Assembly: GCA_017439405.1 (NCBI GenBank)
Contig: JAFSJF010000074.1
Location: 1 to 64,000, forward strand
DNA: 64,000 nt
Direction: 5' to 3'
Origin: Bacteroidales bacterium
GTDB taxonomy: Bacteria; Bacteroidota; Bacteroidia; Bacteroidales; F082
This document shows, piece by piece, positions 56,140 through 63,657 of this stretch; positions within the stretch are counted from its first letter, which is position 1; each line of letters starts with the position of its first letter. Position numbers and translations under genes: made by a program. The notes beneath the pieces are model-generated. The model was not told where the DNA came from, ran no database searches, and saw nothing but the letters and a program-made list of their open reading frames with translations.

Positions 56140-57561
56140 TTAAAATGGTTTGAAATAATCCCGCTCGTTATCTTCATCATCATCAAGAAACCCCTTGGCT
56201 TCTACCTTGATTTCTACTGGGAAAGTTTCTCTGGCAAGATCAATTAAGCGTCCCCAACTTCGACTTCGGTATTCTCTGAAACGGTCGCCAAGTTGTTGCA
56301 AGGCAATCTTTTGGTCGGACTCCTCCGATAAAAACGATGGTATGTTTTGTTGAAGATATTTGTTCCAAGCAATGAATTTTACCACAGTATTTGTGTTTCC
56401 TGTTTGTATTAGTAATTGAATACGTCCTTTCAAATCCGACAGGAAATACAATGTCGGTTTGTAGTTGAGCAACAACTTTAAGTATTTATCAGGGTTGTTA
56501 TAAAAATCAGCACAGTCAAATGCGGTACGACTATAGCGATAATAGTTGTCCACTGCATATATCCATGGTTTATAATTGCGATTCAAAAGGCGTTTGACAC
56601 GCCCGAACAAGAGGCTTTCAGCTTCGTCGTCATTAAGACGCATGTGTGTGTTTGCCAATACTTGGTAGTACTGTATTTGAGACAATCTGCTTTTGTCGAT
56701 GTTAAAGCCCTCCTCTTTGGCAAGGCGCATACAAAGAAATTGGTAATCGGCCTTCCCCAACTCTTCTTGATGCATCAAGACATAATCCAGAGGAAATCTG
56801 TGCATAATGACCCTAGCACATTCAGGTTCACCAAAAGACAGCCATGCTTTCTCAACATCGGGCATAATGGCATCATCCCACCAATTATTCTGTAATATGT
56901 CTAACCAGTCCCTCCTGTGTAATGATTTTGCAGATAAGACAGCCTTTATAATTTGGATTTGACATGGCAGAGATTGCCCCCAGAAACGCATTTCGAGAAA
57001 GTCAGAAGCATCGTTTCTTTCCTGGTTGTCGTTCGATTGAAGTTTGTCCATCAGTTGTTTTATTGGATATTGCTCCTCTTCTGGTGTTACAATGATGGTT
57101 TTTTCATCTGGTTTCACTTGCGGTCGGGTGTACCTTTCAGCCCCTCGCGGTGTTACAATGATGGTTTTTTCATCTGGTTTCACTGGAATAATCCTGCCAA
57201 ATGATATAGTGGTAGTCCTTTCAATGTAGTTTTTTTCAACAAACTCAGGCTCGCTTTTTAGCAGCTTGTTCAAGATATTGATGGCACGAGTCGGGTTTTC
57301 CTCATACAAGCTATAGAACTGGGCATTCAAACTATCTGTGCCAAATTCTTGATGCACTAATGCATCGGGGAGGTATCTTAGGATGCAGAGTTCATCCATA
57401 ATGATGAAATCCTGTTCGTTAAGTTCAATCTCATCAAGCCTTTTATTTAGTGCTTTAGCTATTTCCAATTCTTTTATTCTTGGATCATCATCATTTATGA
57501 GTGAAAGCTCATCTCTAAGCGTTTTGGCAATGTCATTGAAATGTACAGTGTCGTTTGGCAT
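56140..57561 (-). CDS. Unrecognised 473-residue protein with internal 22-codon duplication
   Basis: A soluble, acidic protein with no family I recognise. A helical N-terminal part ends with two copies of VKPDEKTIIVTP (near residues 127 and 149), the result of a 66-bp in-frame tandem duplication; the rest is alpha-helical, rich in Tyr, Trp and Leu (HRRDWLDILQNNWWDDA, CARVIMHRFPLDYVLMHQEEL), like a helical-repeat scaffold. It lies 149 bp beyond the retron-linked genes in the same direction and in the same AT-rich DNA, so it may belong to that system or to a separate insertion. No start promoter is clear. Confidence 0.65.
   Translation of the reverse strand: MPNDTVHFNDIAKTLRDELSLINDDDPRIKELEIAKALNKRLDEIELNEQDFIIMDELCILRYLPDALVHQEFGTDSLNAQFYSLYEENPTRAINILNKLLKSEPEFVEKNYIERTTTISFGRIIPVKPDEKTIIVTPRGAERYTRPQVKPDEKTIIVTPEEEQYPIKQLMDKLQSNDNQERNDASDFLEMRFWGQSLPCQIQIIKAVLSAKSLHRRDWLDILQNNWWDDAIMPDVEKAWLSFGEPECARVIMHRFPLDYVLMHQEELGKADYQFLCMRLAKEEGFNIDKSRLSQIQYYQVLANTHMRLNDDEAESLLFGRVKRLLNRNYKPWIYAVDNYYRYSRTAFDCADFYNNPDKYLKLLLNYKPTLYFLSDLKGRIQLLIQTGNTNTVVKFIAWNKYLQQNIPSFLSEESDQKIALQQLGDRFREYRSRSWGRLIDLARETFPVEIKVEAKGFLDDDEDNERDYFKPF
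57083..57184. repeat. 36-bp perfect direct repeat, period 66
   Basis: Bases 57083-57118 and 57149-57184 are identical. The period of 66 keeps the reading frame of the 473-residue protein and adds one VKPDEKTIIVTP unit. Perfect identity suggests a recent duplication that could still vary in copy number. Confidence 0.9.
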
Positions 57562-57709: not shown

Positions 57710-57809
57710 ATTATAACACATCGCGCATCTGACGAGCTCGCAGGAGGGAAATCTGCTCATCGATTAAATTTGTATTATAAATTATATTTGTATTATAACA
57801 CATTGCGCA
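57710..57809. repeat. 18-bp direct repeat, 82 bp apart, at the 3' end of the 312-residue gene
   Basis: ATTATAACACAT(C/T)GCGCA is found at 57710-57727 and 57792-57809 with one difference. The distance of 82 is not a multiple of three. A second short repeat (TTTGTATTATAA twice near 57769 and 57787) lies between. Confidence 0.8.
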
Positions 57810-58649
57810 GGGTTCAAAGCCCAATACATCTAGTAATTTTCTGTCAAACTTCAATTCTGGATTATAAGTCTTTAAATACAAATCTTTCAAATCTTTAATT
57901 ATATCCATCTTTCTAGGATGAATATATCTCAAGACTTTTTTAATATCCTCTTCAGAGTACTGTGTGGGATTGTACATTATTGGTTTGTTTGGGTTATTCC
58001 CAATATAAGATAAATAAGCGAAGCGAATAAAAATATCAGTGCGTTTTTTTTCTTCCTTTGCCCACGAAAACAAATCATCCAATTGGTGATATATGTTGTC
58101 GTTTATTATTTCAACACTAGCATTATCAAACTCTGCAAATCCAGAGTTGCTCTTAGTTTCAACCTCAAAACTATGGATATCCGTTCCAAAAGCTAAATTA
58201 AGCTTGAAAACAAAAGCATCCGGTTTTGTTAATCTAAGAGACTCATTTTCCTTCCACCATTTACGGAACTCCTTTATTTTTTCTATACCTTGGTCAAAAA
58301 TCTCATTAGGAATTCTTATTCTTTCAAATTCAGCATGCAACCTTTCACAATCGCAATTGTTATGATAAGACGGCGACCTCTCTGGTTGTACATATCTATA
58401 ACTATCATGTGGTTTTTCTATTCTGTGATATTTATAGATTGCTTTTTCAGTGTTTTTACAGAAAGACTTGTAAACAAGTAAATCATTCACTTCCCAACGA
58501 GCAAATAACGCTGTCGGATTGCTTTGATCGATGGTTTTTCCGTTAGGTGCAGTCCATATGATTGGATCATCAAACTTATAGTCCCTGCCTTGGGGAGCCT
58601 CAAAGCCTTTTGTTATTCTATTGAAATTATAATTGGTGATATATGCCAT
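57711..58649 (-). CDS. Cys-containing protein of the retron operon with altered C-terminus
   Basis: A 312-residue protein, family not recognised. It starts 7 bp after the HEPN-motif gene and so is third in the RT operon. Possible metal ligands are Cys99, Cys101, His105 (NCDCERLHAEF) and Cys281/Cys284 (PCAMCYN), a pattern that could build a zinc-finger or HNH-like site. The central part (FKLNLAFGTDIHSFEVET, SWAKEEKKRTDIFIRFAYLSYIG) is mixed alpha/beta. The last ~28 residues look unlike the rest: an 82-bp direct-repeat insertion has shifted the frame, and a more protein-like tail (CYNGNHRVGKK, then YNQWYSDMPDGFDGDYSF) survives in other frames at 57608-57725. Confidence 0.65.
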   Translation of the reverse strand: MAYITNYNFNRITKGFEAPQGRDYKFDDPIIWTAPNGKTIDQSNPTALFARWEVNDLLVYKSFCKNTEKAIYKYHRIEKPHDSYRYVQPERSPSYHNNCDCERLHAEFERIRIPNEIFDQGIEKIKEFRKWWKENESLRLTKPDAFVFKLNLAFGTDIHSFEVETKSNSGFAEFDNASVEIINDNIYHQLDDLFSWAKEEKKRTDIFIRFAYLSYIGNNPNKPIMYNPTQYSEEDIKKVLRYIHPRKMDIIKDLKDLYLKTYNPELKFDRKLLDVLGFEPCAMCYNTNIIYNTNLIDEQISLLRARQMRDVL

Positions 58650-58656
58650 GTTGTAT

Positions 58657-59481
58657 TTACTTTTCTAAGTTTTCTCTTATTTTTCCGACAAGTTGACACA
58701 ACGAATTCTCAACTTCATCATATGGAGAAGAAATAGCCCATATCTTTACTTCGTAGGTAAGATAATCAATTCCCGCATTTTTGAGATTTTCTAGAAAATC
58801 ATTATAGCTTTCTTCATACATTAGTTTTTCAGATTTAGTACACTTATAACGATCTACAAATAAGTTCTCTCCAACTCTACGGACTGGCAAACCAGACTTT
58901 CTTATTTGCTCCTGAATCCATGAATGCTCTTTCCCAATCTCAACACCCCTGTGACTTTGAATGTTTCTTGCTTGGTATAGTTTTTCATACAAAAAATTCC
59001 TTATATTATAGGGAACGAAATTCGTCAACAATGATAACTTTTTACCATAAGTGACATTCTTTTCTTCGTTTATGTTACAGGCTCTCTTTAAGTTACTCTC
59101 AGTTCCATATTTTATGTGGCAATAATAGTTTATTATGCCTTCCGCCTGAAGGTTGGCGTAACGGCAAAATTCAAAGAAATCAGGTTCATGCTTTCTTACC
59201 CCACAACGATACCTCAACATTTCTCTCCAATCTGTTTCAAGTTTTAATCGCAATACTTCATCCTTAACAAATGAATAATCAATTTGTGTTGCCATTTCAT
59301 CTATATTATAATCTATGGCTAAATATCTTTCAATATTGGAAATTGAATCATTGTTATAAGTGGTTGAATTTGTATCGCCCCATTTGCTCCGTAATTCATC
59401 AAGCAGCCACTTATTGCCTGGCTGCTTTGAGAGTTGAGCAATTTTATCTATCGTTTTTATTATGGCTTCCCGGTTATCCAT
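58657..59481 (-). CDS. Putative HEPN-type effector next to the retron RT
   Basis: A 274-residue soluble protein starting 2 bp after the RT stop. Residues 85-180 are helical and contain YQARNIQSHRG: Arg172-Asn173-x3-His177, the RNxxxH (Rx4H) signature of HEPN ribonucleases, preceded by a helix with polar Asp/Glu residues as in HEPN folds. The last 90 residues (WIQEQIRKSGLPVRRVGE, FLENLKNAGIDYLTYEVKIW) form a separate part. No family name is recognised. Retron operons usually pair the RT with a toxic effector, and this position fits; a HEPN RNase that stops growth by cutting RNA is the leading guess. The call rests on one short motif and on context. Confidence 0.6.
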   Translation of the reverse strand: MDNREAIIKTIDKIAQLSKQPGNKWLLDELRSKWGDTNSTTYNNDSISNIERYLAIDYNIDEMATQIDYSFVKDEVLRLKLETDWREMLRYRCGVRKHEPDFFEFCRYANLQAEGIINYYCHIKYGTESNLKRACNINEEKNVTYGKKLSLLTNFVPYNIRNFLYEKLYQARNIQSHRGVEIGKEHSWIQEQIRKSGLPVRRVGENLFVDRYKCTKSEKLMYEESYNDFLENLKNAGIDYLTYEVKIWAISSPYDEVENSLCQLVGKIRENLEK

Positions 59482-59483
59482 AG

Positions 59484-60959
59484 TTATTCTGAAGTGTTTG
59501 TTTCGATGAGAGTGGCAAGGTCATTCAAAACGGATAGGACATTGCCATCATCCATCAATGGGGTTAATAGTGTTTGGGATTTCTGTGATCCAGCCCCAAA
59601 CGTGTCATTACACAGTTTCTCAAATCTATTGGCATAGGACTTATACGTAGAGTCGGTTTCACCCTTTACCATTTTGAGATACATGAGTTTTCCTGAGATA
59701 ATGTTTTCTACATGATGTTCGCCCTTAAATCTAAGGTTGCGAATATTAGTCTCGGCATAGTGTTTAGCAAAGATGGCTTGTGCTTCGTCATATCCTTTCA
59801 CCTCCCAATTGTGAATCAAGGGACGCAATTGCTTGATATACTTACGAGAAACGTTTGTTTTGGAGTTCACGGTCAAACCAGTCACCTCTTGCCTCATTCC
59901 CCGATGACAGAGTCGCGTCTTATCCGAATTGATTTTGAGACCTTCTTCGTTCTCAATAATGTTGCGCAAAGAGGTGCAAAACTTGCCATCCTCGGCAAAG
60001 ACGTTCTTCATGCCACTGAAAGTAATATCATCAGCATAACGAGTATATTTCAAACCGTATGCTTTAGCAAGACGAGTAAGTTTGAAATCCAACTTCTCAC
60101 AAATAATATTGGTAATGGTAGGCGAAGTTGGTGCTCCTTGAGGAAGGACTTTGTTTTCTCCTTTTTGATAGCAACACAAGTCGCTAATCAAACTCGCCAC
60201 TTTTTCATTCAGACAGAATGGTTTTACCAACAACCGCTTGAATACACGACCTGAAGTAATAGAAGGGAAGAAATCCTTTAGATCAATGTTGTAAACATAG
60301 TTTTGGCCAAGATGCACTTGGGCGTTTGTGACAACAGACTTGCCTTTCACAAAACCCATCGCAGCGGCATTGGGACTATATACTTCTTGCAGTACGAAAT
60401 TCAACGCTTGTTGGATGTTCTTTAGTTCACTGCACGGTGCATCAATGGTGCGAAATTCTCCCTTTTTCTTTTTGGGTATTTTGAAGGTAACATAACGACC
60501 TTTGCGTACCATTAGCTTCAAACGGCCAACCGTAGTTTTTACAGCATCCATTCCATGCAATGCCTGCAATGCCATATTCAGGACAACACATAAATCATCT
60601 ATTCCATTCATTGAATGCCACCCCTCAACAATCTTTGCCAATTGTTGTTTGAGATCTTCACCAGTCAGAGGACTACCTCCATATTTTGGCAATTCATCAA
60701 TTTTGGAAAGAGCATCGGCTTGGGTCGAAATAGTTTCCTCATCTGACACTTTTGCGGAATCAATATCTTCCAATTCCGTAACAGCCGCAGCCACTCTAAC
60801 CAAATCATCCTCAATAGGTTCAATAGCAAAGAGAACTTCTTCGGCTTTTTCCGATCCAGAAGAAACCAGTTCAGAAACCTCAGTTTTCTTTGAAGCACTG
60901 GTTTGTCCAAGCTTTTTCTTGAGGTTCTGTTTCTTTGTTATGTTCTTTTTCTTTGCCAT
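59484..60959 (-). CDS. Retron-type reverse transcriptase
   Basis: A 491-residue retron-type RT. Residues 1-150 are an unusual extension: a basic start (MAKKKNITKKQNLKKK), an acidic low-complexity linker and a helical part. The RT core follows: FRTIDAPCSELKNIQ (RT1), NIDLKDFFPSI with Asp226 and Asp229 (RT3), LPQGAPTSPTITNII (RT4), YTRYADDITFSG with YADD at 308-311 (RT5), and VTGLTVN (359-365), the VTG signature of retron RTs that binds the primer-RNA. No maturase, HNH or integrase part is present, so it is not a group II intron protein. The 346-bp leader upstream carries a matching non-coding RNA. Usual retron RTs are 300-350 residues, so the N-terminal part is extra. Confidence 0.88.
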   Translation of the reverse strand: MAKKKNITKKQNLKKKLGQTSASKKTEVSELVSSGSEKAEEVLFAIEPIEDDLVRVAAAVTELEDIDSAKVSDEETISTQADALSKIDELPKYGGSPLTGEDLKQQLAKIVEGWHSMNGIDDLCVVLNMALQALHGMDAVKTTVGRLKLMVRKGRYVTFKIPKKKKGEFRTIDAPCSELKNIQQALNFVLQEVYSPNAAAMGFVKGKSVVTNAQVHLGQNYVYNIDLKDFFPSITSGRVFKRLLVKPFCLNEKVASLISDLCCYQKGENKVLPQGAPTSPTITNIICEKLDFKLTRLAKAYGLKYTRYADDITFSGMKNVFAEDGKFCTSLRNIIENEEGLKINSDKTRLCHRGMRQEVTGLTVNSKTNVSRKYIKQLRPLIHNWEVKGYDEAQAIFAKHYAETNIRNLRFKGEHHVENIISGKLMYLKMVKGETDSTYKSYANRFEKLCNDTFGAGSQKSQTLLTPLMDDGNVLSVLNDLATLIETNTSE

Positions 60960-60988
60960 ACCAATAATTTCAACTAATTCACTTTTCC

Positions 60989-61210
60989 ACGATTGTCACC
61001 ACTTGCACCGTTCATTACTTCAGAAACAGTAATAATCTCAATAATATACAATATCATAATACATAATACATAATATCACGAATCATAATACCATCAAGGA
61101 CTAACATTTCAAATCATGCGCCGAGCACATGAGCCTGCCGATACAGCAGGCTTTGCTGTATGGCTAACCACACAGCGGGTCTAATTCAGGGTGCTTGTGA
61201 TGACAATCGT
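60989..61210 (-). ncRNA. Retron msr-msd non-coding RNA (predicted)
   Basis: Transcribed toward the RT. The ends form a 21-nt inverted repeat: a1 at 61210-61190 and a2 at 61009-60989 pair at 19 positions (one G-U, one AA/AA bulge), sharing the core ACGATTGTCA. Between them, first come GC-rich hairpins: ATACAGC/GCTGTAT (61161-61141), overlapping an alternative AGCCTGC/GCAGGCT stem (61152-61132), and TCATGTGC-TCG-GCGCATGA (about 61133-61115), together like an msr. Then follows an AT-rich stretch with several TATTATG copies and a hairpin ATTACT/AGTAAT (61033-61014), the likely msd. a1 first, msr, msd, a2, then RT is the retron order. The branch-point G is not assigned. Transcription probably begins near 61274. 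Confidence 0.72.
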
Positions 61211-61277
61211 TTCAAAGAACTTTAGGCGTTAGCATTTGTTTATCGAGAGTGCTTTGCCTGTTCGCTCTCGTTTTCGT

Positions 61278-61316
61278 TTGCAAAAGTACAACCCTACCGC
61301 GCAACCTATTTTCGCG
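61278..61316 (-). promoter_or_regulatory. Promoter and putative WYL operator of the retron operon
   Basis: TACTTTTG (61288-61281 on the minus strand) is a -7 box within TTGCAAAAGTA (plus strand, 61278-61288). After exactly 10 bp comes GCGCAACCTATTTTCGC (61299-61315), which overlaps the last codons and the TAG stop of the DUF1016 gene. The same module stands before the WYL gene at 63619-63657. A 6-bp hairpin (CGAGAG/CTCTCG, 61244-61270) lies just inside the transcript. Confidence 0.65.
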
Positions 61317-62496
61317 AATTTTCTTTTTTCAGTTCCAGTTCCCTCACCGTGCGCTCCACCACCTGTTCAAGCTGGAAGGAGGACACGCCCAGCGGCTTGT
61401 TGATGTCGCGCAACGACCATTCCACAACGGTCTTGTCGGTCGATTTGCAGATGATCAGCCCCACGGTGGGGTTGTCGCCCTCGCCACGCAGCAACTCGTC
61501 AACGGCGGTAACGTAGAAATTCAGCTTGCCGGCAAACTCGGGGATATACTTCACCACCTTCAGCTCAATGACGACATAGCGGTGCTGCGGGATGTGATAA
61601 AACAACAAATCGGGGAAGAAGGTCTGCCCGCCAGGCATCTGCAACTCCATCTGTCGCCCCACATACGAAAAGCCCTTGCCCAACTCCATCAAAAAGCGCG
61701 TGACATTCGAAACAAGCGCATCTTCCAAGTCCTTCTCCTCGTACTCATCGCTCATCGAGAGGAAGCCGAAATGATAAGGGTCTTTCAGTATCTCCTTGGC
61801 CAACTGGCTCTGCGGCGCCGGAAGCGTATGCTCAAAGTTGGTCACTGCTGTCCCTTGGCTGCCAAAGAGGTTGGCGGCTATCTGGCTCTCAAGTCGGCTG
61901 CGGCTCCAGCCTTCTTCAGTCACCTTATTGATATAGAAAATGGCTTCATCGAGGGTTTGGCATTTGGAAATAATGAGGACGTGATGAAACCACGGTATCC
62001 TGCCAAAGATTTCTGGCATTTCTAATTGGTCAGCAGCTTGCTGACATTTTCCGCAATCTTCAATTTGACCAACAGTCTGTTGGCTTTTTTCAACTGCCTC
62101 TAATTGGTCAGCAACCTGCTGACCTTTTTCGTCACCAGCTTGGTGACCAATTTGGTCAACGGGTCGTTGACCTTTTATAACCCGTTCATAATAAAACAGA
62201 TACCATCGTTTCATATATTTCACATTGGTATCCGAGAAGCCCGTTTCATCAGGAAACGCTTGGCGCATGTCAAGGGCAAACTGTTTCACCACACCTGCAC
62301 CCCAGCGTTCTTCTGCACGAAGCGCCATCAAATCACGGCCTACACTCCAATAAAACTCAAGCATGGCTGTGTTCACACGAACCGCCGCCTTGACTTGGCT
62401 TTGGCGGAATCGTTGCTTGATGTCGGCCATCCATTGCACATAGCCTTCATCGGCGGTCATCATGTCACGGGATACGAATGTCGGTTTGTCGGTCAT
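61306..62496 (-). CDS. DUF1016/YhcG-family PD-(D/E)XK nuclease
   Basis: A 396-residue protein of the DUF1016 (YhcG) family. The N-terminal domain (LEFYWSVGRDLMALRAEERWGAGVV split near residues 47-75; YMKRWYLFYY) is followed by a variable linker, then the PD-(D/E)XK nuclease fold: FFPDLLFYH with the metal Asp, then VVIELKVVKYIPEFAGKLNFYV with E-x-K. Such proteins occur in defence islands, often next to type I restriction genes, and are thought to be DNA-targeting nucleases. The linker (about residues 108-165) is made of DQL/GQQ repeats encoded by tandem palindromes. It starts 44 bp after the WYL stop with its own TATTTTTG box, and ends inside the retron operator. Confidence 0.88.
   Translation of the reverse strand: MTDKPTFVSRDMMTADEGYVQWMADIKQRFRQSQVKAAVRVNTAMLEFYWSVGRDLMALRAEERWGAGVVKQFALDMRQAFPDETGFSDTNVKYMKRWYLFYYERVIKGQRPVDQIGHQAGDEKGQQVADQLEAVEKSQQTVGQIEDCGKCQQAADQLEMPEIFGRIPWFHHVLIISKCQTLDEAIFYINKVTEEGWSRSRLESQIAANLFGSQGTAVTNFEHTLPAPQSQLAKEILKDPYHFGFLSMSDEYEEKDLEDALVSNVTRFLMELGKGFSYVGRQMELQMPGGQTFFPDLLFYHIPQHRYVVIELKVVKYIPEFAGKLNFYVTAVDELLRGEGDNPTVGLIICKSTDKTVVEWSLRDINKPLGVSSFQLEQVVERTVRELELKKENSRK
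62028..62172. repeat. Five tandem ~18-bp palindromes inside the DUF1016 gene
   Basis: Five near-palindromes of the form GTCA-N-TGAC follow each other at 62028-62045, 62067-62084, 62106-62124, 62131-62148 and 62154-62172 (for example GTCAGCAGCTTGCTGAC, GTCACCAGCTTGGTGAC). Centre spacing is about 39, 39, 24 and 24 bp. They encode the variable VADQLE/GQQ linker of the nuclease. Confidence 0.85.
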
Positions 62497-62519
62497 CCTT
62501 CTTTAGAGTTAGTGAAATG

Positions 62520-62527
62520 CAAAAATA
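62520..62527 (-). promoter_or_regulatory. -7 box upstream of the DUF1016 gene
   Basis: TATTTTTG on the minus strand, 23 bp before the DUF1016 ATG, matches TAnnTTTG. It lacks the operator motif seen at the WYL and retron promoters. Confidence 0.45.
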
Positions 62528-62539
62528 CAAATAAATCCA

Positions 62540-63598
62540 TTACAAACCCTGATACGCTTGGAATTGAGCCACCACGCGATCACGCACCTTCTGCTGGATG
62601 TCGGCGGGCGAAAGCACCAACAGGTCTTTACCAAACGAACATAACTCTCGTATCAATTCGTAATTCTCAATACACTCGATAGAGAAAAAATAACCGCCAT
62701 CAAGCATGGGAAATTGTTGGCGCAATGCCATCTCCTTTTCTCCTTTGTAATGCCGCTGCGATTCGTGCAAAGGCTTGGTCGCTACATATTCCTTGGAAAA
62801 ATCACTAACCCAGAACAAAATAGTCTGCAAGGGGCGGTCGTCATACAAGGTAACCCCGACGATGTCCTCGAAACGCTCGTTGAGGTCGCCTTCACAAGGC
62901 ACAAATCCTTTGGCAGGCAATGGCATCACCTCATCTATACGGTCGAGCGCAAACGACAGAAGTTTTCCATCGTTGTCGGCTGCCCCAATGAGATACCAAC
63001 GGCGGTTGTATTCCTTGAGCAGATAAGGATGTACCACGGTTTTGCGGTCTTCATCGGGAGTGTCAAAGCGGTGGTAATGCAACTCCACAACCTGCCTTTG
63101 CGAAATGCAGGTGAAAAGCTCGCCAAACAGGTTAGAGTTCTCCAAAGGATTCTTGGTGAATGAGACAATCTGCCGATCGGTCTTCACATTCAAGCCATTC
63201 CTTAGCGTTTCCAAACCTTCCAGATTGGGCAGTCCTTCAAACTGACCCAGCAGCGACAGAGCCTCGTTAAGCAGGTACTTTTCATCTTCGGTCATTTCCT
63301 TTTTGAATATGGAAAAAGATGGATCAGCATAGCGGTGGCAACTTTTCTTGATGGTTTTTAGGGTTCTTTGGCTTATGTCGTCAATTTGGTAGCTTTGGAT
63401 ATCCGCAAAAAACGGGTCAGCTTGCATATATTTAAGGTCAAGTTCGATGGTGCGACGACTGACAGGTTCTTGATTCATTTCCGCCAACTCCTCGTTGACG
63501 AGTCGAAGCAAATCCTCAGTAGAATAATGGTGATAGCGGTTGGCCAACAGTTTGTCGAGGATATAATATCGCGTTACGGCGTTTTTGTTTGCAGGCAT
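62540..63598 (-). CDS. WYL-domain transcriptional regulator
   Basis: A 352-residue regulator. The N-terminal winged helix (RYYILDKLLANRYHHYSTEDLL, VSRRTIELDLKYMQ, residues 9-60) is followed by a WYL domain whose name motif is YNRRWYLIG (near residue 205) with basic ligand-binding residues, and a WCX-like C-terminal extension (TILFWVSDFSKEYVATKPLH). WYL proteins (BrxR/CapW type) often repress phage-defence operons and their own gene, and sense nucleic-acid or nucleotide signals. It leads this minus-strand defence-like block and has a promoter-operator module shared with the retron promoter, so it probably controls both. Confidence 0.9.
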   Translation of the reverse strand: MPANKNAVTRYYILDKLLANRYHHYSTEDLLRLVNEELAEMNQEPVSRRTIELDLKYMQADPFFADIQSYQIDDISQRTLKTIKKSCHRYADPSFSIFKKEMTEDEKYLLNEALSLLGQFEGLPNLEGLETLRNGLNVKTDRQIVSFTKNPLENSNLFGELFTCISQRQVVELHYHRFDTPDEDRKTVVHPYLLKEYNRRWYLIGAADNDGKLLSFALDRIDEVMPLPAKGFVPCEGDLNERFEDIVGVTLYDDRPLQTILFWVSDFSKEYVATKPLHESQRHYKGEKEMALRQQFPMLDGGYFFSIECIENYELIRELCSFGKDLLVLSPADIQQKVRDRVVAQFQAYQGL

Positions 63599-63618
63599 AG
63601 ACGTTTGATTTATTGCGC

Positions 63619-63657
63619 TTGCAAAAGTAATAATAATTTGCGAAACCTATTTTCGCA
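63619..63657 (-). promoter_or_regulatory. Promoter and putative auto-operator of the WYL gene
   Basis: TTGCAAAAGTA (63619-63629) holds TACTTTTG on the minus strand; after 10 bp follows GCGAAACCTATTTTCGC (63640-63656), a GCGAAA/TTTCGC inverted repeat around a 5-base centre. It covers the expected -33 region. The retron promoter at 61278-61316 has the same module and spacing. Confidence 0.65.

Follow-up and report, generated by a model that had tools for sequence, protein, structure and literature searches.

A WYL regulator appears to share one operator-promoter site with a retron and interchangeable defence genes in Bacteroidales

BrxR is a WYL-WCX regulator encoded beside phage-defence genes, with varied defence systems downstream (PMC9122601, PMC9122589); palindromic sites mark its own and one other defence promoter (PMC9122601), as is the case for the locus described here. 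It was assigned as a repressor by reporter tests (PMC9122601), whereas the sign of regulation proposed here is one that we infer. The BrxR boxes have arms of 10-11 bp and are situated after the -10 or over the -35 element, and in the accessible parts of both articles no fixed spacing rule was found for the described sites (PMC9122601, PMC9122589). Retrons are not named among the BrxR-associated co-localised systems in the available part of PMC9122601. CapW, likewise a WYL protein, regulates both its own gene and a defence operon and has a palindrome in the core promoter, but it is a repressor and its palindrome overlaps the -10 element (PMC9122588).

Two further regulators resemble the present system in promoter architecture. 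DriD of Caulobacter is a WYL regulator with a palindrome over poor -35 elements at one distance from the -10 element; a site is also located beside its own gene, activation of which is not demonstrated in the part of the article available (compare the second WYL clade below). DriD differs in controlling a DNA-damage regulon rather than a defence island, in belonging to a different phylum, and in that activation and an ssDNA ligand were tested experimentally (PMC12340889), whereas for the present protein both are predictions. PafBC of mycobacteria is a WYL activator that works through a -26 element and responds to ssDNA, the binding of which needs two arginines of the WYL domains; unlike the protein considered here, it is a heterodimer, and it does not bind promoter DNA without RNA polymerase (PMC11804915). 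Of these two key arginines, the present protein seems to have retained one. SiwR is also a mycobacterial WYL activator. Among the matches listed in searches of open-access titles and abstract beginnings, no description of WYL control of a retron and none of a WYL activator of phage-defence genes was found. Most accounts of retrons treat them as toxin systems that are restrained post-translationally (cf. PMC12548924).

Gene content of the locus and the two-copy module

The window, i.e., the whole stretch of 64,000 nucleotides analysed, is part of a draft genome of 3,527,702 bases in 159 contigs. All features of the locus are located on the minus strand in the order WYL regulator, yhcG (DUF1016), retron RNA, reverse transcriptase (RT), E1, and E2. 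The WYL regulator (62540..63598, 352 aa) is matched by Pfam WYL (1.8e-13) and WCX (2.3e-06), both above cut-off; its N-terminal region was judged helix-turn-helix-like by eye from the alignment and has no Pfam HTH match. Three PDB sequences were matched by the WYL profile with weak scores, one of which is named PafBC; the other two are 'transcriptional regulator-like' chains of 7p5x and 9fnd, which we take to be PafBC-RNA polymerase complexes. Full-length copies of the WYL gene, 17 in number and 76-100% identical, occur in 16 of 173 genomes of the family (own genome included). Directly 3' of it lies yhcG (61306..62496) with a PDDEXK nuclease domain (Pfam YhcG_C 1.5e-52, DUF1016_N 3.8e-32; PADLOC PDC-S02 2.5e-129). 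Within this gene, repeats of the type TTGGTCAGCAnCnTGCTGACC occur in imperfect form, both direct and inverted (window 62021-62176).

The RT gene (59484..60959, 491 aa) is matched by Pfam RVT_1 (3.7e-23) and by PADLOC retron RT models, and its matches to NCBIfam retron models are below their cut-offs. The protein carries NAQVH at 212, YADD at 308, and VTG at 359; YADD, NAXXH, and VTG form the motif set of retron RTs. Upstream of the RT gene an RNA (60980..61272, ends approximate) is closed by the inverted repeat I1 (arms 61182-61217 and 60982-61017), is conserved in 5 genomes, and folds with a minimum free energy of -105.8 kcal/mol (z -7.1); no Rfam match at gathering score was obtained. With both the RT motif set and a structured inverted-repeat RNA present, the unit is a predicted retron with this RNA as its msr-msd.

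E1 (58657..59481, 274 aa), the partner protein of the RT, looks like a HEPN ribonuclease and is a candidate effector. It has no PDB match by sequence, and its predicted structure model appears to resemble HEPN structures. Its motif R172-N173-I-Q-S-H177 is invariant at R, N, and H in 25 aligned sequences (mean column identity 30%), in which the gap between N and H varies from 2 to 3 residues; R-N is a common variant of the HEPN motif. The motif agrees with the definition R-phi-X3-H (PMC13405049), though N is not hydrophobic. The type IX retron Kva2 has a HEPN effector, as this retron seems to have in E1, but one that lacks the canonical motif present in E1 and is in a complex with a separate winged-helix protein, and in the text available on this retron the term WYL occurs 0 times (PMC13405049). 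E2 (57711..58649, 312 aa), a doubtful member of the retron unit, is located 3' of E1 in few loci (6 entries, including a duplicate locus) and has no family match in Pfam, PADLOC, and further family-profile searches. Two identical 36-nt copies, 66 nt apart, are situated at window positions 57083-57184 within a 473-aa gene (56140-57561).

An earlier note on this DNA had described one module, in the plus-strand form TTGCAAAAGTA-N10-GCG(A/C)AACCTATTTTCGC, upstream of both the WYL gene and the retron RNA. It is indeed present at both places (63619-63656 and 61278-61315), with ten unrelated spacer bases and agreement of 16 of the 17 palindrome bases. As the genes concerned are minus-strand genes, the module has to be read on this strand, i.e., as GCGAAAATAGG-TT(T/G)CGC, N10, TACTTTTGC, which corresponds to a 17-bp palindrome (arms 6, centre 5), ten bases, and a Bacteroidetes -7 box. 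The last element, TACTTTTG, fits TAnnTTTG, the consensus of the sigma-ABfr -7 box (PMC7366714). Operator 1 (GCGAAAATAGGTTTCGC, 63640..63656) and its -7 box (63622..63629) precede the WYL gene, and operator 2 (GCGAAAATAGGTTGCGC, 61299..61315) and its -7 box (61281..61288) precede the retron RNA, the distance being exactly 10 bp in both cases. Operator 2 spans the stop codon of yhcG, the TAG of which forms the palindrome centre.

No match to the module was obtained in 100 dinucleotide shuffles of the window. In the whole 3.5 Mb genome the exact module occurs only at these two sites, and therefore a common genomic repeat, which the note had named as the observation that would speak against its reading, is ruled out. 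With up to three mismatches the 17-mer was found in 12 places, namely the two perfect copies and ten that deviate at exactly three positions, compared to 15 places for the reversed pattern.

Occurrence, geometry and targets of the operator in related genomes

A degenerate form of the module was searched in 99 genomes of the same genus, yielding 43 sites in 19 genomes, and 0 sites for the reversed pattern. A WYL orthologue is located on the same contig in case of 41 sites. Of the remaining two, one has its palindrome approximately 50 nt upstream of another WYL gene, with which it is co-oriented, and the other, 98 bases from a contig end and thus undecidable, resembles a WYL promoter. With the orthologue line drawn at E up to 1e-100, our own choice, the site is present in 18 of 20 genomes with a WYL orthologue versus 1 of 79 others (Fisher 1.4e-16). 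The exceptions are G051 and G127, where an orthologue is present and the module pattern finds no match, and a single genome among the 79, in which the site adjoins another WYL gene. G082, which has a partial WYL gene (63% identity) and a variant site missed by the pattern, was counted among the 79.

A palindrome within 5 mismatches of the consensus precedes 22 of 27 WYL genes, whose upstream regions served to build the motif; the five exceptions are L062, L063, L069, L070, and L071. In L063 a gene of 833 aa lies between the site and the WYL gene. Beyond the palindrome, the 27 upstream regions are mostly unrelated between loci. Genes 3' of yhcG vary among the genus loci, and the second operator usually stays at the yhcG stop codon, except for only a weak half in L045 and a poor match in L046. 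Judged from these comparisons, the operator is that of a predicted conserved regulon.

The search was extended to the best 80 of 185 relative loci, mostly from rumen and gut Bacteroidales as far as titled; L154 has no WYL start, and some loci repeat those of earlier sets. A site is present in 74 of the 80 loci, directly at the WYL gene in 54, and at least two sites occur in 50. At WYL promoters the palindrome occurs in three main dialects, GCGAAAATAGATTTCGC, GCGCAAA(T/A)AGATTGCGC, and ACGAACATAGAGTTCGT. Other sites share the dialect of the local WYL-promoter site in 59 of 65 cases and deviate in 6, a count that leaves aside 29 sites in loci without a WYL-promoter site. Recognition-helix residues gave only weak correlates of the dialect (E to Q in 70% of dialect B) and were not used.

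The geometry of the module is nearly invariant. A -7 box is located exactly 10 bp from the palindrome in 126 cases and at other distances (up to 42) in 9, compared to none for the reversed-pattern control; no distinct palindrome has a box within 40 bp only at another distance, and 28 palindrome entries (counted per strand) have no -7 box within 40 bp. Moreover, the centre A(A/T)NG has one orientation in 120 and the opposite orientation in 1 of 137 cases.

Behind 146 of 148 sites a first gene was found, 2 sites having no ORF behind them. These genes encode WYL proteins (56), RTs (17), PIF1-like helicase family proteins (15), AAA_15 ATPases (11 and a further 2), WG-repeat proteins (8), HATPase proteins (6), weakly WD40-like proteins below the Pfam cut-off (5), and HAD-like proteins (4), besides small groups and singles including DUF3825, a caspase-domain protein, and an N6-methylase; part of the groups were named by Pfam from one representative each. 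In L123 (12554-13447) and also in L136, the operator is directly followed by the gene for a caspase-domain protein. In L118 (11374-14376) the same operator precedes the gene of a 1001-aa fusion protein, an RT whose C-terminal extension is matched by Pfam HisKin-conflict. The ten smallest distances from the -7 box to the RT start are 232 to 314 bases versus approximately 20 in most other large groups, and therefore the promoter also covers the retron RNA. The regulon is thus wider than the retron on which the earlier note had centred it.

The pairing of WYL gene, module, and retron, which the note had proposed to seek in related genomes, recurs. RT homologues are present in 31 of the 80 relative loci, all with this WYL clade, and in 29 of these the operator was found at spacing 10 when the motif was relaxed and the search confined to 700 nt around the projected RT start. 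Other spacings served as control and gave 0 to 2 of 31 loci at spacings 0-22, and 6, 4, 2, and 1 of 31 loci at spacings 23, 25, 27, and 29, respectively. The strict motif within 1.5 kb was found in 19 of 31 retron loci; no operator was found near the RT of L117 and L152. Among the 173 family genomes, 13 RT loci were identified, with the operator in 6 of 6 with the WYL clade and in 0 of 7 without. Five of the six had already been counted in the first set, and the two sets together give 30 of 32 (window included) versus 0 of 7 (Fisher 2.3e-06), where the latter refers to the CG-type operator and several of the seven carry the palindrome of the second clade described below. In wider stretches around these seven loci, five have a WYL gene of another clade, one is near a contig edge, and one has none. 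A transcription regulator is consequently situated beside the RT in 11 of the 13 loci, six of this clade and five of another. The retrons preceded by the operator have RT identities of 43-94%. WYL-retron pairs also occur in Phocaeicola faecalis FXJYN30E22, Marseilla massiliensis An824, Prevotella sp. S7-1-8, and Alloprevotella rava DSM 22548, the last without an operator near the RT.

WYL proteins similar to that of L069 form a second clade, found in 11 of the 173 genomes at 63-100% identity and in 8 at 35-42%. The palindrome GTGCAA-N5-TTGCAC is present in 10 of the 11 closer loci (none in L202) and in 0 of the 8 more distant ones. In 25 loci, several of them overlapping, 24 sites have spacing 10 and 14 have spacing 14-16, and the reversed control gave no sites in the same loci. 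Counted as unique modules, 14 at spacing 10 belong to targets and 9 at 14-16 to the WYL gene's own promoter, the latter group being assigned by position before the WYL gene. In L196 one palindrome serves both, at 10 towards the target and at 14 towards the WYL gene. L200 contains a WYL gene and an RT and no second-clade palindrome. In case of the second-clade retrons of L195, L196, and L069, a further conserved -7 box (TATTTTTGCAATCGTTC) without an operator is located 61 to 88 nt after the operator promoter, perhaps a second start.

Activation or repression by the WYL protein

Comparison of the loci establishes a predicted operator, its link to WYL genes, matching dialects, a rigid geometry, and swapped cargo; from these we infer that the WYL protein binds the palindrome, activates, responds to a ligand, and confers a benefit. 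The reading to which we assign a probability of a little below 0.6 is that the WYL protein is a cognate, activator-like regulator of a small regulon, with the operator built into the core promoter. The palindrome, exactly 10 bp from TAnnTTTG and over the -33 region, would be bound by the WYL protein at a fixed register. The bound protein would stand over a missing -33 element and most likely recruit or stabilise RNA polymerase, and the ligand of the WYL domain probably signals infection or DNA damage. In the window the WYL protein would switch on two separate units, WYL-yhcG and the retron (RNA, RT, and E1). In relatives other conflict genes have taken the place of those behind the second operator, with the operator retained.

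It had been claimed that the shared site lies over the -33 region, and the palindrome does cover it. A TTG at positions -24 to -21, i.e., in the -33 region, occurs in 0 of 96 operator promoters versus 77 of 292 ordinary promoters; this larger set and the four-position window were chosen after a first look at a smaller set, which with TTG at -22 in 10 of 110 ordinary promoters seemed uninformative. Constant distance to the core box over a poor -33 region is the arrangement of DriD, and a palindromic operator at own and defence promoters that of BrxR and CapW.

The same regulon may instead be governed by a repressor of the BrxR/CapW type that covers the -33 region, silences its own gene and the cargo, and releases them on infection, a possibility we consider real, yet distinctly the less probable of the two. 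BrxR, with a box at its own promoter and a second one at another defence promoter, represses (PMC9122601), as does CapW on CBASS and itself (PMC9122588). Toxic cargo is best kept silent, and the operator sites have consensus -7 boxes. As the site of Acinetobacter BrxR overlaps the -35 element (PMC9122589), position alone is not decisive. However, a repressor that acts by blocking could do without a near-invariant 10-bp spacing and without a fixed orientation, no -33 TTG is left for RNA polymerase, and in the second clade targets and own gene differ in spacing. Because fixed spacing, fixed orientation, and the missing -33 TTG resemble DriD and PafBC more than BrxR and CapW, our analysis tends to favour activation at the targets over repression. 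Some observations count against an activator. In the first clade spacing 10 is likewise found at the site of the WYL gene itself, so that an activator would have to stimulate its own expression; the palindrome occupies the -33 position and thereby accounts in part for the missing TTG; and the rigid spacing could have been inherited by copying of whole promoter modules. In addition, the counterpart of one ssDNA-binding arginine of PafBC, residue 217 of the WYL protein, appears to be alanine as read off the alignment, whereas the counterpart of the second, residue 220, is invariant. Of the earlier proposal, one operator type serving both the WYL gene and the retron therefore stands, whereas a retron held silent by the WYL protein fits spacing, orientation, and absent TTG less well than an activator does.

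It is improbable that the palindrome is read by something else, such as an alternative sigma factor or as a general promoter element, with an indirect WYL link. The rigid geometry does resemble a promoter element, but within the genus the site tracks genomes with the WYL clade and has the dialect of the local WYL promoter; a separate palindrome goes with another WYL clade, and the -7 box is of the ordinary kind. That the two copies merely stem from recent promoter copying without regulatory meaning, as their being the only two in this genome might suggest, is hardly credible, given that the palindrome is kept next to unrelated spacers here and in relatives and before retrons as divergent as 43% in RT identity. 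Selection rather than simple copying, as had been suspected, is borne out by a palindrome that is kept while spacers and flanks change and that recurs in relatives; free drift of the palindrome like that of the spacers would have spoken for mere copying, and the comparison shows the opposite.

A possible portable switch for defence genes

With activation by the WYL protein as the preferred reading, a single regulator appears to govern its own gene, a retron, and interchangeable defence genes through one shared site, located almost always at exactly ten bases from the promoter core. This suggests a transferable switch with which these bacteria operate sets of phage defences. It is tempting to speculate, at roughly even odds, on a promoter grammar for portable immunity, in which WYL activator and operator-promoter cassette form a switch with slotted defences, the second clade having its own gene in a different geometry. 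If true, retrons, caspases, ATPases, methylases, and helicases would be turned on together by one signal. Independently of this, the operator indicates which neighbours of the WYL gene are members of the predicted regulon. Searches with the rule palindrome, 10 bp, TAnnTTTG can serve to detect unknown defence genes, and the rule offers a clear way to test for repression or activation by the WYL proteins of defence loci. A Bacteroidales retron type with an adjoining transcription regulator would contrast with the usual view of post-translational control.
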